DNA from: Spiroplasma ixodetis
GTDB lineage: Bacteria; Bacillota_I; Bacilli_A; Mycoplasmatales; VBWQ01
Direction: 5' to 3'
Length of the DNA stretch: 64,000 bases
Assembly: GCF_027923845.1 (NCBI RefSeq)
Contig: NZ_AP026933.1
Coordinates: 372,001-436,000 of the forward strand
The position numbers and the translations under genes are program-made. Of this stretch, positions 44,219 through 59,663 are shown piece after piece (within the stretch, counting starts at the first letter, position 1; the number at the start of each line of letters is the position of its first letter). Under the pieces are notes generated by a model. That model saw only the letters and a program-made list of their open reading frames with translations. It had not been told where the DNA came from and did no database searches.

Positions 44219-45157
44219 GGCTTTTCTCCCTTTATGTACTATTTTAATTTTATCACATAAATGCTGAGAAAAGCCTATCTACGGACTTCTCCCCACATTT
44301 TTAAATCAAACATAGAATTACAGTTTCAAAACTAGGTATCTTGTTGAATTTATATGCAGCTTCTTTAGCATATAAATGAACATGATGTTTTGCAACTTTG
44401 ATATGTGTTTTAAATGTTCTTCTTATATGTTTTCAAACTGATTCAATTTGGTTGGTATTTACACCAATTTTTGAAACATAGCCATCTTGATGGTTAACTG
44501 TTTCATGCTTAGTGAAAACTGATTTAAAATCGCAATATCCTTTTCAAGAATCAGTATATACAAGACATTTTGAAGAAATGTGGTTTTTTGCAAACTGCAA
44601 AAGATTTTTACTCTTTGCGTTTTTCAATACTTTCACAATTAAATTATTGGTTGTTTTTTGATAAATGCCAACAATCAAGGTTTTATTCACCAAGGATCTT
44701 CCTTGTTTTTTAAAACCCATATGTGAAAGATACATTTCATCAATTTGCACTGTACCTTCAACAATAAATTGAGGTTTTTGTTTTGCAATACGTGTTCTGA
44801 TTTTATGAGTCATTCTTCAAGCAGTTTTCAAAGTCACTCCCAATTCTTTTGCAATATCTGTTGATGGAATTCCATGTTTGGTGTTTATTCATCTAAAGAT
44901 AAGATAAAACCAAGATGTTAAAGATGTTTGTGACCTTGAAAATATGGTGCCTGTGAGAATGCTAAATGTTTGATTACATTTTAAACATCTCATTCTTTTT
45001 AAATCAGAAGTATTCAAATTAAAATTAAAACACCTAATACATTTGTTTTCTTTCAAATTTGCTATATATGCAAGACATTGCTGTTCAGTTTGAAAAGCAT
45101 TGTTGAATTCATTCAGTTTCATTATTCCCTCCACAAGTACATGTGGGGAGAAGTCCG
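44219..45157 (-). mobile_element. IS1595-family element, subtype 1, complete
   Basis: 939 bp, flanked by TTTATTTT. Intergenic between the small membrane gene and rpsD, downstream of both. Confidence 0.94.
44301..45122 (-). CDS. IS1595-family transposase, subtype 1
   Basis: Intact 273-residue copy of the protein at 28855, with complete zinc ribbon and catalytic residues. Confidence 0.92.
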
Positions 45158-45264: not shown

Positions 45265-45876
45265 TTAAGCACGTCCATATGATTCAACAACTAATGCTTC
45301 ATTAATATCAGTATTTAGTTCGTCACGTAGTGGATGACGTACATATGTACCAATAAATGTTTTTTTATTGAATTCAATAAATGGTAATGTTGAAGCATTA
45401 GCGCTTAATGCTTCAATAATTTTTGCATTTTTTTGTGCTTTTTCAGTAATAGTAATTTTATCTCCTATTTTAACACGATATGAAGGAATATTAACTTTTT
45501 TACCATTAACTAAAACATGACCATGATTTACTAATTGACGAGCACCTTTTCTTGTTAAAGATAAACCTAAACGAAAAACAATATTATCTAATCTTGATTC
45601 TAAGAATACCAACAAGTTAGTACCAGTAACACCATGAGTTTTTTTTGATTCATCAAATAAATTTTTCATTTGACGAGCATTTAAACCATAAGTGAAACGA
45701 ATTTTTTGTTTTTCTTGTAATTGTAATCCATAGTTAGAAAGTTTAATTCTTTTTTGACCGTGTTGTCCAGGAGCGAATGTTCGCTTTTTTCCTTTTGCAA
45801 ATTCTTTACCAGATTCAAGAATTGAGAAGTTTAATCTTCTTGATTTTCTAAAAACTGGACCAGTATATCTTGACAT
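45265..45876 (-). CDS. rpsD: 30S ribosomal protein S4
   Basis: Primary 16S rRNA-binding protein of the small subunit. 203 residues: MSRYTGPVFRKSRRL at the start, RTFAPGQHGQKRIKLSNYG, YGLNARQMKNLF, ESRLDNIVFRLGL, and the S4 RNA-binding domain with ARQLVNHGHVLVNGKKVNIP. The ending RDELNTDINEALVVESYGRA is typical. The RBS AAGGAGG is perfect. A 190-nt leader with base-pairing potential and a consensus promoter lie upstream, in keeping with known S4 autoregulation in Bacillus. Confidence 0.97.
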   Translation of the reverse strand: MSRYTGPVFRKSRRLNFSILESGKEFAKGKKRTFAPGQHGQKRIKLSNYGLQLQEKQKIRFTYGLNARQMKNLFDESKKTHGVTGTNLLVFLESRLDNIVFRLGLSLTRKGARQLVNHGHVLVNGKKVNIPSYRVKIGDKITITEKAQKNAKIIEALSANASTLPFIEFNKKTFIGTYVRHPLRDELNTDINEALVVESYGRA

Positions 45877-46066
45877 AATAAAAACCTCCTTGGAATGTAT
45901 ACAAACACAAAGAGACTTTAATAAGTTCTCATTAAGATAGTTTACAATTCGCCAGAACAGCACTGGTTACTATTAAGATTAATAGAAAATTCTACTAATA
46001 AAAAGAATAATCTTTGAGGGTAAACTATTTGCAACTTAATAATACTTATTTGCTGCTTTCGTGAAT
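45877..46066 (-). promoter_or_regulatory. Structured rpsD leader (candidate S4 autoregulatory element)
   Basis: The transcript upstream of rpsD is long (~190 nt) and carries no gene. ATAGTTTAC (46028-46020 on the minus strand) is exactly complementary to GTAAACTAT (45945-45937), a 9-bp long-range helix. Firmicutes rpsD leaders bind S4 through such a fold; whether this one has the same shape needs folding and alignment. Confidence 0.55.
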
Positions 46067-46074
46067 GCTTGTTA

Positions 46075-46103
46075 ATTATAGGATAAGTAATGTTATTTGT
46101 CAA
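46075..46103 (-). promoter_or_regulatory. Consensus sigma-A promoter for rpsD
   Basis: On the minus strand TTGACA, a 17-base spacer, then TATAAT. Both boxes match the housekeeping consensus at all six positions, the best promoter in the window. Confidence 0.85.
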
Positions 46104-46342: not shown

Positions 46343-47020
46343 GAGGCTTTTTAATAATCTGTGTATCTTTTTTTACAAAGTTACTAATTTAGATTAATTC
46401 TGTCTTCAAATTTTATCATAAAATGAGCAATTGCTGTATTTCAATTTTGAATAGGCAATGTTCATTTTTTTGTTATATTTTCAATTGCCAAGTAAAATAT
46501 TTTGAAAACTGCCATATCATTAGGAAAAACTTTTTTATTTCTGATGATTTTTCGTAATTGACTATTAACAGATTCAATAGCATTTGTAGTATAAATCACT
46601 CTTTTGATTTCTACTGGATAACTAATAAAAAACCATTAAATTATCTCAATTTTTATATCAAGATTTAGTAATTTGAGGATATTGTTTATTTCATTTACTT
46701 TCAAACGATTCTAAAGCTTGCATTGCTTGTTCTTCACTACATGCACTATAAATTGGTTTTAAATCTGCAACTAGACCTTTTCGATGTTTGTATGAAACAT
46801 ATTTTAAACTATTTCTAATTTGATGAACAATGCATAATTGATGTTCTGTTTTAGGATAAACTGATTGTATTGCTTCTGACATGCCTGTTAAATTATCACT
46901 ACAAGCAATAAGAATATCATTTAAGCCACGATTTTTCATTTCTGTGAAATTAGATAATCAAAACTTAGAACCTTCATTTTCACTAATTCATAATCCTAAA
47001 ACATCTTTTTTGCCTTCTAA
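46343..47020 (-). mobile_element. IS256 fragment (right-hand half)
   Basis: Carries the tip GAGGCTTTTTAATAATC and the C-terminal half of the transposase, ending at GKKDVLG where IS5 copy 5 begins. The other half is absent beyond the IS5. Extra bases near 46629 and in the T run near 46369 show independent decay. Confidence 0.88.
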
Positions 47021-47883
47021 GAACCTGTTTAGAATCTTTTTAATAAAATTGAAATAAAGGACAGAACAACCATTTGTAAACTAGTATTTAGTTTTCTTTC
47101 ACAATTTTTTCATAATCTTCTGCATTTTTCTAATCATGCAAAGCTTCGTTCTACAACTCATCTTTTTGGTAGTACTACAAAAGAATGTAATTCATTACGT
47201 TTTACAACTTCAACATTTGCATTTATGATTGTTTTGATTGCAGAAGCAAATTTTTCACCAGTATAGCCAGCATCTACTATTATTTTTTGAACTGTAGAAA
47301 GATTTTCTTTTTCACTTTTAATCATTATGATAGCACTATTACGATCTGTTTTTTCTGCTGTAGTTATGTAAATTGCATGTGGTAAACCTTGCGTATCAAC
47401 TGCAATATGACGTTTTATTCCTGAAATCTTTTTACCAGCATCATAACCTTTATTTTCAGTAGTATCTGTATTTTTAACACTTTGCGAATCAATTATACAA
47501 AAACTAGTTTTTTCTTTTCGATGATTCTTAATACGAATCTTTTTAACTAATTTTTTTAAAATTAATTGCAATACACTAGGTTCTTTATCATTGTTTTTAC
47601 TTCAAATTTGGAAATAATAATATACAGTTTGTCATTTTGGAAAATTTTTTGGTAACATTCTTCATTGACAACCACTTTTTAATACATATAAAACTGCACA
47701 AAACACTTCATATAAATCTAAATTTCTTGGTTTTGTTTTCTTTTTGCTGTTTTCTAAAGTTGATTTTATGTTCTCAAATTGTTCTTTAGTAACATGACTT
47801 GGATAATTTTTATGCATATATACCTCTTATTTTAAAATATATAGTAATTTTACCTTATTTTCTAAAAGATTCTAAACAGGTTC
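47021..47883 (-). mobile_element. IS5-family element, copy 5
   Basis: 863 bp. The left flank is TAA within IS256, the right flank TTA within a propeller gene. The flanks do not match, so this copy marks a recombination joint and not a simple insertion. Confidence 0.92.
47029..47817 (-). CDS. IS5-family transposase (copy 5)
   Basis: Intact 262-residue transposase with IIDSQS, VDAGYTGE and VVERSFAWLE. Confidence 0.9.
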
Positions 47884-48263: not shown

Positions 48264-48542
48264 ATGACCAATATTAACTCATATACCGACGAATTTAAAA
48301 AGCAAATAGTAGCTTTATATCAAAGTGGTAAGTCAGTGTCTTGTCTTGCTAAAGAATATAATGTTACAAGAGCAACTACTTATAAATGAATTAAACAATT
48401 TACTAATTCAGGTAGTTTTAAAATTAAAAATAATCTTTCAGATTTAGAAAAACAATTAATTCAAGCAAATAAAGAATTAAAACAGTTATGAATGGAAAAT
48501 GATATTTTAAAGCAAGCAGCACTAATAATAGGCAGAAAATAG
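48264..48542 (+). CDS. IS3-family OrfA (type E)
   Basis: 92 residues. Helix-turn-helix SVSCLAKEYNVTRATTYKWI followed by a leucine-zipper-like tail LEKQLIQANKELKQLWMEND typical of IS3 OrfA. AAAGGAA lies before ATG. It ends GRK just past an AGAAAAT string, where a -1 shift would lead straight into OrfB. Confidence 0.9.
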
Positions 48543-49423
48543 AAATTATTACTAAAAATAAAGTTAAATATAAAATTCGCACAATGTGTCGTTTTTTAAA
48601 ACTCTCTAAATCAACATATTATTTTAATTTAAAGAAAAAAGAAAAAATTCAAAATAATATTTATGATGAAGCTGTTATTAGTGCTTTTAAAGAAAATAAA
48701 GAAGTTTATGGTACTAGAAGATTAAAAGTCATACTAGCAAACCAAGAAATTTATTTATCACGCAGAAAAATTAAAAAAATTATGAATAAGCATAATTTAA
48801 TATCAAAATACACTAAATTATCATTCAAAAATCATCATAATAAAGTCAATGATAGTCAAATTACCAATCTTGTTAATAGAGACTTTAATAATAGAATTAA
48901 AAATGAAGTTATTGTCAGTGATTTAACTTATGTTCAAGTTAATGGTAAATGAAACTATATTTGCCTATTAGTAGACCTGTACAACCGCGAAATTATTGGA
49001 CATAGTGTTGGAGTTAAAAAAGATGCATCATTAGTACATCAAGCATTTATGCACTCAAATCGCTGTTTAAAAGATATTCAAATATTTCATAGCGATCGCG
49101 GTAATGAATTCAATAATAAAACTATTGATAAACTTTTATTAGCATTCAATATTACCCGTTCTTTAAGCAAAAAAGGATGTCCTTATGACAATGCTGTTGC
49201 TGAAGCAACTTTTAAAACTTTCAAAACAGAGTTTATTAATGATAAAAATTTTACATCATTAATCCAATTAAAATTAGAATTATTTGATTACATAAATTGA
49301 TATAACAACATAAGAATTCACAGCACTCTAAACTACCTAACTCCCGTTAAATATCATGAACAAATGTCTACCAAAAAATGAACTTGTCAAGAAAAGTGGA
49401 CAATAAAAGTAACCTTTTATTAA
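48539..49423 (+). CDS. IS3-family OrfB transposase (type E)
   Basis: Expressed probably as an OrfAB fusion by -1 frameshifting at 48537-48542; no good start codon or RBS precedes ATG 48584. HTH_21 region EVYGTRRLKVILANQ, integrase core with VIVSDLTYVQ (D), IFHSDRGNEFNNK (D) and DNAVAEATFKTFKTEF (E), and IRIHSTLNYLTPVKYHEQM at the end. The last residues after MSTKKWTCQ come from the inserted second IS3. Confidence 0.88.
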
Positions 49424-58152: not shown

Positions 58153-58569
58153 GGGGATGTTCTGGTTTCGACAGGAGTGAACAACTAATTGTGGCAGTGG
58201 TTTGGTAGACCATAATACTACGAGGTTTCATAACCGGAAAACAAACTAAAACCGTAGTACCTAACTGATTCACAACAAAGTTAAACAACTTTGGATTTGG
58301 TTTAGGAAATCAAGCACTTTTACCTGCTTAATTACTTAAGAAGTAAATACTACCGTTGCTAATAGCAAGTTTATCAATATTAGTAACGTATCATAAGGAT
58401 AAACTAGAAAAAATGATGTTAATAAATTTTTTCGAATTTCCATTAACTAGCTATTCATAATTTCGTATAATTTATTATTAAATAGTGATTTTTCTAAATT
58501 ATACTAAACTGTAGATACAGTTAGTCAGTTAACTTTTGGACGCGGGTTCGATCCCCGCCATCTCCACCA
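58153..58569 (+). ncRNA. ssrA: Transfer-messenger RNA
   Basis: Rescues stalled ribosomes by adding a degradation tag. The 5' end GGGGATGTTCTGGTTTCGAC and 3' end GGTTCGATCCCCGCCATCTC with ACCA form the alanyl-tRNA-like half: GGGGATG pairs with CATCTCC (one G-U) and a T-loop GGTTCGATCCC is present. About 417 nt. The only long open frame after the first pseudoknot region reads GKQTKTVVPNW (TGA Trp), then FTTKLNNFGFGLGNQALLPA and TAA at 58329-58331, a candidate tag of ~31 residues. Confidence 0.93.
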
Positions 58570-58579
58570 TAAATTAAAT

Positions 58580-58598
58580 GCACAATTGTGCTTTTTTT
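58580..58598 (+). terminator. Terminator after tmRNA
   Basis: GCACAATTGTGC is a perfect palindrome followed by TTTTTTA. Confidence 0.8.
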
Positions 58599-58765
58599 AT
58601 TATTTAATTTAATAATTAATTATAAATAACTTTATAAGATTTTAATTAGTGAAATAAATAATAAAAAAATATTTAATATTTTATGAATAATATTGTAAAA
58701 CAAGTTGCAAATAGTAACTAGTCTTGGTAATATTGAAAAGTCTTTAAATTTTTTTAATTATATTT

Positions 58766-58841
58766 GGAGCCGTGGCCAAGTGGTTTAAGGCATAAGTCTG
58801 CAAAACTTTGATCGTCGGTTCGAATCCGATCGGCTCCTCCA
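58766..58841 (+). tRNA. tRNA-Cys (GCA)
   Basis: GGAGCCG/CGGCTCC acceptor, anticodon GCA in the loop of AGTCTGCAAAACTT, T-arm GGTTCGAATCC, encoded CCA. First gene of a nine-tRNA cluster. Confidence 0.95.
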
Positions 58842-58948
58842 AAATATTAATAATATTTGCAAATATACTTGTAAATATTACTTTTAATAAGTTATAATTT
58901 ATTAGGTTTAATGATTTAATGAGTTACTATAAATTTTAGTAATTAAAT

Positions 58949-59025
58949 GCGCCTGTAGATCAATTGGATAGATCGTTTGACTACGGATCAAAAGGTTGTG
59001 GGTTCAAGTCCTGCCAGGCGCACCA
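58949..59025 (+). tRNA. tRNA-Arg (ACG)
   Basis: Acceptor GCGCCTG/CAGGCGC, anticodon ACG in TTGACTACGGATCAA, T-arm GGTTCAAGTCC, CCA encoded. The A is normally deaminated to inosine to read CGN codons. Confidence 0.95.
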
Positions 59026-59026
59026 T

Positions 59027-59103
59027 CGGGATGTGGCTCAGCTTGGTAGAGCGCTCGGTTTGGGACCGAGAGGTCGCAGGTTCGAATCCTGTCTTCCCGA
59101 CCA
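59027..59103 (+). tRNA. tRNA-Pro (TGG)
   Basis: Acceptor CGGGATG/ CTTCCCG, anticodon TGG in CGGTTTGGGACCG, CCA encoded. One base after tRNA-Arg. Confidence 0.95.
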
Positions 59104-59116
59104 TTATTAAAAACAA

Positions 59117-59192
59117 GGGCCCTTAGCTCATTTGGTAGAGCGCCTGCCTTGCACGCAGGAGGTGGTCGGTTCGATCCCGATAGGGTCCACCA
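59117..59192 (+). tRNA. tRNA-Ala (TGC)
   Basis: Acceptor GGGCCCT/AGGGTCC with the G3-T70 pair that marks alanine tRNA, anticodon TGC in CTGCCTTGCACGCAG, CCA encoded. Confidence 0.95.
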
Positions 59193-59226
59193 TTTATATA
59201 TCGGTTTAAACATTTAAAGTAAAACT

Positions 59227-59303
59227 GGCGAGGTAGCTCAGTTGATTAGAGCGTTCGGTTCATACCCGAGAGGCCATGGGTTTGAGTCCCATCCCCGCTA
59301 CCA
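59227..59303 (+). tRNA. tRNA-Met (CAT), elongator
   Basis: Anticodon CAT in CGGTTCATACCCG. The GGCG start and paired 1-72 position separate it from the initiator at 59512; similar to the Bacillus elongator tRNA-Met. Confidence 0.88.
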
Positions 59304-59310
59304 TAGTCTA

Positions 59311-59387
59311 GGACCCTTAGCTTAGTTGGTTAAAGCTCCCGGCTCATAACCGGGCGAGCATTGGTTCGAATCCGATAGGGTCCACCA
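59311..59387 (+). tRNA. tRNA-Ile2 (CAT, lysidine-modified)
   Basis: Anticodon CAT in CCCGGCTCATAACCGGG with a GGACCCT/AGGGTCC acceptor. Its likeness to Bacillus tRNA-Ile2 suggests C34 is changed to lysidine by TilS so that it reads AUA, a very common codon here. The assignment against Met is by resemblance. Confidence 0.8.
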
Positions 59388-59400
59388 TACTTAAATACTC

Positions 59401-59490
59401 GGAGGCTTACCCAAGTCCGGTTGAAGGGAACAGTCTTGAAAACTGTCAGTGCGCAAGTGCTCGAGGGTTCGAATCCCTCAGCCTCCTCCA
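59401..59490 (+). tRNA. tRNA-Ser (TGA)
   Basis: 90 nt with a long variable arm (GTGCGCAAGTGC), anticodon TGA in CAGTCTTGAAAACTG, acceptor GGAGGCT/AGCCTCC, CCA encoded. Confidence 0.95.
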
Positions 59491-59511
59491 TTATTATTAA
59501 ATTTTATACAT

Positions 59512-59586
59512 CGCGGAGTGGGGAAGTGGTATCCCGTCGGGCTCATAATCCGAAGATCATTGGTTCAAATCCAGTCTCCGCAACCA
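59512..59586 (+). tRNA. Initiator tRNA-fMet (CAT)
   Basis: CGCGGAG/CTCCGCA leaves C1 and A72 unpaired, the hallmark of initiators; anticodon stem GTCGGGCTCATAATCCGA carries the run of G bases, with one C to T change on the other side giving a weaker third pair. CCA encoded. Confidence 0.9.
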
Positions 59587-59587
59587 C

Positions 59588-59663
59588 GGTCTTGTGGTAA
59601 AGTGGTTAATACGCCTCCCTGTCACGGAGGAGATCGCGGGTTCGATCCCCGTCAAGACCGCCA
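59588..59663 (+). tRNA. tRNA-Asp (GTC)
   Basis: Acceptor GGTCTTG/CAAGACC, anticodon GTC in CTCCCTGTCACGGAG, CCA encoded. One base after tRNA-fMet; last gene of the cluster. Confidence 0.95.

Follow-up and report, generated by a model that had tools for sequence, protein, structure and literature searches.

The S4 site of the E. coli alpha operon carries the Rfam name Alpha_RBS. Consensus drawings of the S4 leader were reportedly published by Deiorio-Haggar et al. (2013) and by Grundy and Henkin (1992). According to the available part of PMC7247131 (Eckert and Weinberg), experiments have confirmed that S4 targets the Firmicutes S4 leader; its conserved GUAA mimics rRNA, and Clostridia lack this leader. 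In B. subtilis, S4 represses the translation of rpsD by a mechanism whose precise nature is called unknown in the accessible text of PMC4538822. Repression by S4 in B. subtilis is also described in the accessible text of a 2024 review (PMC10931766), which states that the rpsD leader region of this organism forms no pseudoknot. The literature searched, in which subscription papers were mostly outside reach, yielded no account of rpsD leaders from Mollicutes.

In this report the rpsD leader of Spiroplasma ixodetis is compared with these systems. Window coordinates refer to a stretch of 64,000 nucleotides (contig NZ_AP026933.1, positions 372,001 to 436,000). The leader most likely is an S4-responsive RNA homologous to the Firmicutes S4 ribosomal leader, a reading to which we assign a probability of about 0.85.

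The rpsD locus and its promoter

The gene for ribosomal protein S4 is free-standing and carries a structured element with a conserved GUAA in its 5' leader (Table 1). An earlier note on this DNA had described a perfect promoter followed by a leader of about 190 nt. The promoter is indeed present and matches the consensus in 12 of 12 letters. It is the sole perfect promoter of the window; 0.22 are expected by shuffling, and at least one was found in 21 of 100 window shuffles. Transcription is predicted to start near 46068, and the leader from there to 45877 measures 192 nt, in agreement with the length given before. The -10 box lies upstream of the whole element in relatives as well, which speaks against a transcription start close to the RBS, named in the earlier note as a possible refutation. 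Among 65 leaders of the two families compared most closely (f1 and f5, see below), an exact TATAAT is located 5-50 nt ahead of the pseudoknot strand in 54, and the remaining 11 have TACAAT or a similar box instead.

Table 1. Features of the rpsD locus and its leader, in window coordinates.
Feature	Position	Strand	Basis
rpsD (ribosomal protein S4)	45265..45876	minus	Pfam PF00163 + PF01479; TIGR01017, 245.1 bits
Promoter TTGACA-17-TATAAT	46103-46075	minus	12/12 consensus letters
P0 5' strand CACGAA (base helix)	46058..46063	minus	comparative tests; exact pairs in Spiroplasma genome putative
PK5 AGCAGCA, partner of P3 loop UGCUGUU	46051..46057	minus	pseudoknot tests, alignment
P1a 5' strand AUAAGU	46044..46049	minus	covariation, model match
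P1b 5' strand UUAUUAAG	46035..46042	minus	covariation, model match
P2 5' strand AUAGUUUAC (first arm of earlier note, ATAGTTTAC)	46020..46028	minus	covariation
Lineage-specific insert, hairpin-capable, between P2 and GUAA	45975..46014	minus	sequence comparison; pairing from fold
GUAA	45967..45970	minus	alignment of 33 leaders
P3 5' strand CCAG	45963..45966	minus	alignment
P3 loop UGCUGUU (PK3)	45956..45962	minus	alignment, pseudoknot test
P3 3' strand CUGG, then conserved CGAA	45948..45955	minus	alignment
P2 3' strand GUAAACUAU (second arm of earlier note, GTAAACTAT)	45937..45945	minus	covariation
P1b 3' strand CUUAAUGA	45929..45936	minus	covariation, model match
P1a 3' strand ACUUAU	45921..45926	minus	covariation, model match
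P0 3' strand UUUGUG	45906..45911	minus	comparative tests; exact pairs putative
Shine-Dalgarno AGGAGG	45885..45890	minus	sequence
Transposase-like frames	46384-46939, 47029-47817, 44301-45134	minus	by eye
Transposase-like frame	48264-49423	plus	by eye

The rpsD frame is open for 29 codons 5' of its ATG (45265-45963, minus strand) and reaches a GTG in the P3 hairpin, at which no Shine-Dalgarno sequence was seen. The same open frame of 233 amino acids is present in four further genomes of family f1. Since the frame is open upstream of the ATG, the S4 start may be placed too early by automatic annotation. Inspection by eye revealed transposase-like frames, some of them broken, on both sides of rpsD, and the upstream ones start within about 300 nt of its promoter. 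Elsewhere in the window, tmRNA is followed by nine tRNA genes (58153-59660, plus strand).

Conservation and covariation of the leader

Among 198 Mycoplasmatales genomes, rpsD was located in 195. Its upstream DNA was collected from loci of relatives and, in addition, from 60 other regions. Family f1 is that of the window's genome (10 loci, including the window's own) and f5 comprises 55 loci. By eye, the order of the elements is identical in all 65 leaders of the two families: a CAGC/CUGC strand, the two-part P1, P2, GUAA, the P3 hairpin, GAA, the 3' sides of P2 and P1, and the Shine-Dalgarno sequence. The loop of P3 contains GCUG or GCAG in these leaders. GUAA is unchanged in 33 of 33 aligned leaders, and GUAG is found in f9. 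When leaders of these two families are compared, the insert between P2 and GUAA was seen in f1 only.

A first alignment that included f1 misplaced P2 owing to this insert and a second one contained one-base shifts in P2. For this reason, 14 f5 leaders served to build the model. In their alignment (MAFFT, without structure), changes on both sides are present in 13 of 13 pairs of P1, with 97.3% of the cells paired. Pairing over the whole structure amounts to 93.1% and drops to 32-47% when the partners are slid by 1-3 columns. In the larger set of 44 leaders, all 8 pairs of P2 vary on both sides and 93.5% of its cells are paired. Two-sided changes also occur in every one of the 26 nested pairs of this set, for which the model-based alignment leans towards the structure. 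Cells with changes on both sides number 302, versus 91.3 after shuffling and 32-66 after sliding. Covariation, which the earlier note had proposed to look for in relatives and whose absence it had named as a refutation, is thus present in P1, P2 and all nested pairs, and at the comparative level the P1, P2, P3 fold is strongly shown.

The two arms ATAGTTTAC and GTAAACTAT had been proposed to pair over about 75 nt. They are complementary over 9 bp and lie 74 nt apart. Among 2000 dinucleotide-shuffled versions of the leader, 315 also contain an exact inverted repeat of at least 9 bp. Taken alone, the 9-bp helix is unremarkable and not beyond chance, and to this extent a fortuitous inverted repeat behind a good promoter would account for it. 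The covariation in relatives and the covariance-model searches described below contradict this explanation, the probability of which is practically negligible. Because of the comparative evidence the helix is regarded as real; it is P2, one of several helices of the element.

Folding of the single sequence, as suggested before, gave a divided result. The whole leader folds more stably than its shuffles (z -2.74), but the nested minimum-energy fold lacks the 9-bp helix and holds instead the long pairing that was later recognised as the pseudoknot. This alternative fold is preferred, with -43.7 kcal/mol for the free fold versus -41.0 kcal/mol with P1-P3 forced (the pseudoknot not counted).

Inspection by eye also revealed departures from the common layout. 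One f3 genome (L018, G019) has no recognisable element and its DNA upstream of rpsD seems to be coding; the leader seems to be lost there. The rpsD leaders of Brevibacillus and Paenibacillus (L153-L160) display another conserved layout around GCGGCUGA, about 200 nt before rpsD, and the parser found no GUAA hairpin in them. This layout is possibly another type of S4 leader.

Covariance-model searches

Two covariance models were used. R1 was trained on f5 leaders only, without f1. A search of the window up to E 10 gave a single match (46061-45919, minus strand, 25 bits, E 0.003), and in the 2.1-Mb genome the sole match at this threshold is again the rpsD leader (E 0.103). Outside f5 the model is weak (75 of 98 sources matched at E up to 1), and it aligns the P3 part poorly in L020 and some f1 rows. 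The wider model R2 comprises 44 leaders, derived from the matches of 45 sources selected out of 98. Its training set includes two f1 leaders and none from the genus of the window, whose leader it scores with 57 bits. Among the 87 other sources, 35 were found by R2 at E up to 1.

Searching 198 Mycoplasmatales genomes with R2 resulted in 79 matches in 79 genomes, one in each. All 79 are on the same strand as rpsD and 31-73 nt upstream of it; four of them were placed once rpsD had been located (34-42 nt upstream), and the other 75 lie within 31-73 nt. Counted by hand, the matches cover 9 of 9 genomes of f1, 57 of 57 of f5, 5 of 5 of f9 and 8 of 127 others. Many leaders of f3, f7 and f11 show the same elements according to the parser and by eye (for example GUAA-GAAU-GCUGAA-AUUC-UGAA). 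The small number of matches in other families thus reflects, at least in part, a limit of the model. The element was also detected by parser and R2 in class-level Bacilli loci beyond Mycoplasmatales, in a comparison made without the B. subtilis genome (best S4 identity 73%).

The earlier note had recommended a comparison with the Rfam model of the S4 leader. Rfam 15 gave no match at gathering score, either at the window leader or in 11 loci with rpsD and upstream DNA. With the threshold relaxed to E 5, hits near the leader were limited to snoRNA, FsrA, plastid and PhrS models, all at chance level and below their cut-offs. Covariance models now exist where no Rfam model matched.

Retention of the S4 circuit in this reduced genome had also been suggested. 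The RNA part of this proposal is borne out by the gene, the GUAA, the covariation and the complete coverage of f1, f5 and f9, and we infer that S4 is the ligand and repressor in this lineage. Homology to the tested B. subtilis RNA would rest on the GUAA, the gene and the lineage. An S4 feedback RNA would thereby have been kept through the genome reduction of Mollicutes, with one copy per matched genome, found only before rpsD.

Pseudoknot and base helix P0

The loop of P3 is complementary to the strand immediately 5' of P1. The pairing crosses both P1 and P2 and is therefore a pseudoknot. In 42 leaders, mostly one per genus label, the leaders' own strands score 14.5 and permuted ones 12.30 ± 0.34 (0 of 20000 permutations as good); with shuffled 5' regions the score is 10.59. 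The pairing partners vary between groups: AUCUGC/GCAGAU in f5, AGCAGC/GCUGUU in f1 and part of f5, UCAGCA/UGCUGA in f3 and Ureaplasma, AAAGCAG/CUGCUUU and GGCAG/CUGCC in other Bacilli and, by eye, GCGGUA/UACCGC in L134. In L019, L025, L034 and L104 the best complement is off the expected place.

Additionally, a base helix, P0, results from pairing between the sequence 5' of the pseudoknot strand and the segment that directly precedes the Shine-Dalgarno sequence. Its duplex energy is -8.03 kcal/mol for the leaders' own strands versus -6.39 ± 0.33 kcal/mol for permuted ones (0 of 20000). Both tests are based on 42 of 69 labelled leaders, with 3 f1 duplicates, 5 wrong parses and 19 unparsed leaders left out. 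Several of the unparsed leaders show complementary pseudoknot variants by eye.

Reduction to one leader per family (17 families, 39 of the 42 leaders) gives a median p of 0.014 for the pseudoknot, with 174 of 200 draws below 0.05 and 26 not. At this level the pseudoknot signal is moderate, good but not overwhelming. For P0, with windows set by distance alone, 200 of 200 draws are below 0.05. Pseudoknot and P0 are supported across Bacilli by these comparative tests.

We lean slightly towards the view that throughout the Bacilli-Mollicutes group the S4 leader contains a pseudoknot and is closed by a base helix ending beside the Shine-Dalgarno sequence; S4, on binding, would then clamp the mRNA's 5' end against the ribosome landing site. 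If true, this is at odds with the published denial of a pseudoknot in the Bacillus leader and provides a testable mechanism where the literature calls the precise mechanism unknown.

Proposed mechanism

Transcription would begin just ahead of the element. The RNA would then fold into three nested helices (P1, P2 and P3), arranged around an internal loop that has GUAA and CGAA on its opposite sides; the loop of P3 would pair back with the strand 5' of P1, and P0 would connect the 5' end of the leader with the segment that directly precedes the Shine-Dalgarno sequence. Surplus S4 without its 16S rRNA partner would bind the GUAA element and hold this fold, which would lower translation of its own mRNA. 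P0 presumably acts near the Shine-Dalgarno sequence: by keeping both the knot and P0 in place, S4 could block the 30S subunit or entrap it.

The only minus-strand terminator-like hairpin reported is located 3' of rpsD (45247-45220); no terminator-like site was found on this strand from the rpsD promoter to the start codon. Translational control is likelier for this reason. Two other ribosomal leaders of B. subtilis, those of L20 and L10, act by transcription attenuation according to the available part of PMC4538822, and S4 binding might likewise steer a terminator here, but given the position of the sole hairpin after rpsD this is very unlikely.

The way in which translation would be lowered is constrained by the accessibility of the Shine-Dalgarno sequence. 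In silico, its unpaired probability is 0.32-0.91 in the fold forced with P0 versus 0-0.10 in the free fold. Pairing of the 3' side of P1-P2 with the Shine-Dalgarno region was matched by 1046 of 20000 permutations; the pairing is not clearly conserved, and the idea of a conserved switch masking the Shine-Dalgarno sequence is not supported. Plain occlusion is not supported either, since the forced fold exposes the sequence and the hiding pairs are not clearly conserved. A short stretch just before the Shine-Dalgarno region pairs with it better than permuted stretches do (26 of 20000).

Since the forced fold leaves the Shine-Dalgarno sequence more open in silico, activation of translation by S4 would also agree with it. 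This reading is extremely unlikely: S4 represses in B. subtilis according to the accessible parts of PMC4538822 and PMC10931766, and the pairs that hide the sequence are not clearly conserved. A structured leader could further be conserved for reasons other than sensing S4, by setting mRNA stability or by offering a standby site to the ribosome. Such a role would fit the computed folds, in which the free form hides the Shine-Dalgarno sequence and the consensus with P0 frees it. It is nevertheless improbable, as all 79 matches are confined to rpsD and GUAA is described as a mark of S4 leaders in the available part of PMC7247131. An S4-responsive leader that lowers translation of rpsD is the preferred reading, and pseudoknot and P0 make the unsolved mechanism of S4 control in Bacillus testable by point mutations.

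Comparison with known S4 leaders

The Spiroplasma leader resembles the B. subtilis S4 leader, as characterised in the accessible parts of PMC4538822, PMC10931766 and PMC7247131, in the gene, the position, the GUAA and the separation of rpsD from the alpha operon. According to the same sources, control in B. subtilis acts on translation. Comparison here supports a base helix as well as a pseudoknot, the latter being denied for the B. subtilis region in the available text of PMC10931766. Furthermore, an additional hairpin is located between P2 and GUAA in the lineage of the window. The comparative data support a pseudoknot in Bacilli and Mollicutes that one review denies for B. subtilis, and the consensus of 2013 may already include these parts.

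The Fusobacteriales S4 leader (Eckert and Weinberg 2020) shares the GUAA in a similar local setting, whereas its secondary structure is different and it belongs to an alpha operon (PMC7247131, available part). The S4 site of the E. coli alpha operon likewise has S4 as its regulator and likewise contains a pseudoknot. In the accessible text of PMC10931766, however, the E. coli pseudoknot takes in the ribosome binding site of rpsM, whereas the pseudoknot proposed here lies upstream of that of rpsD.
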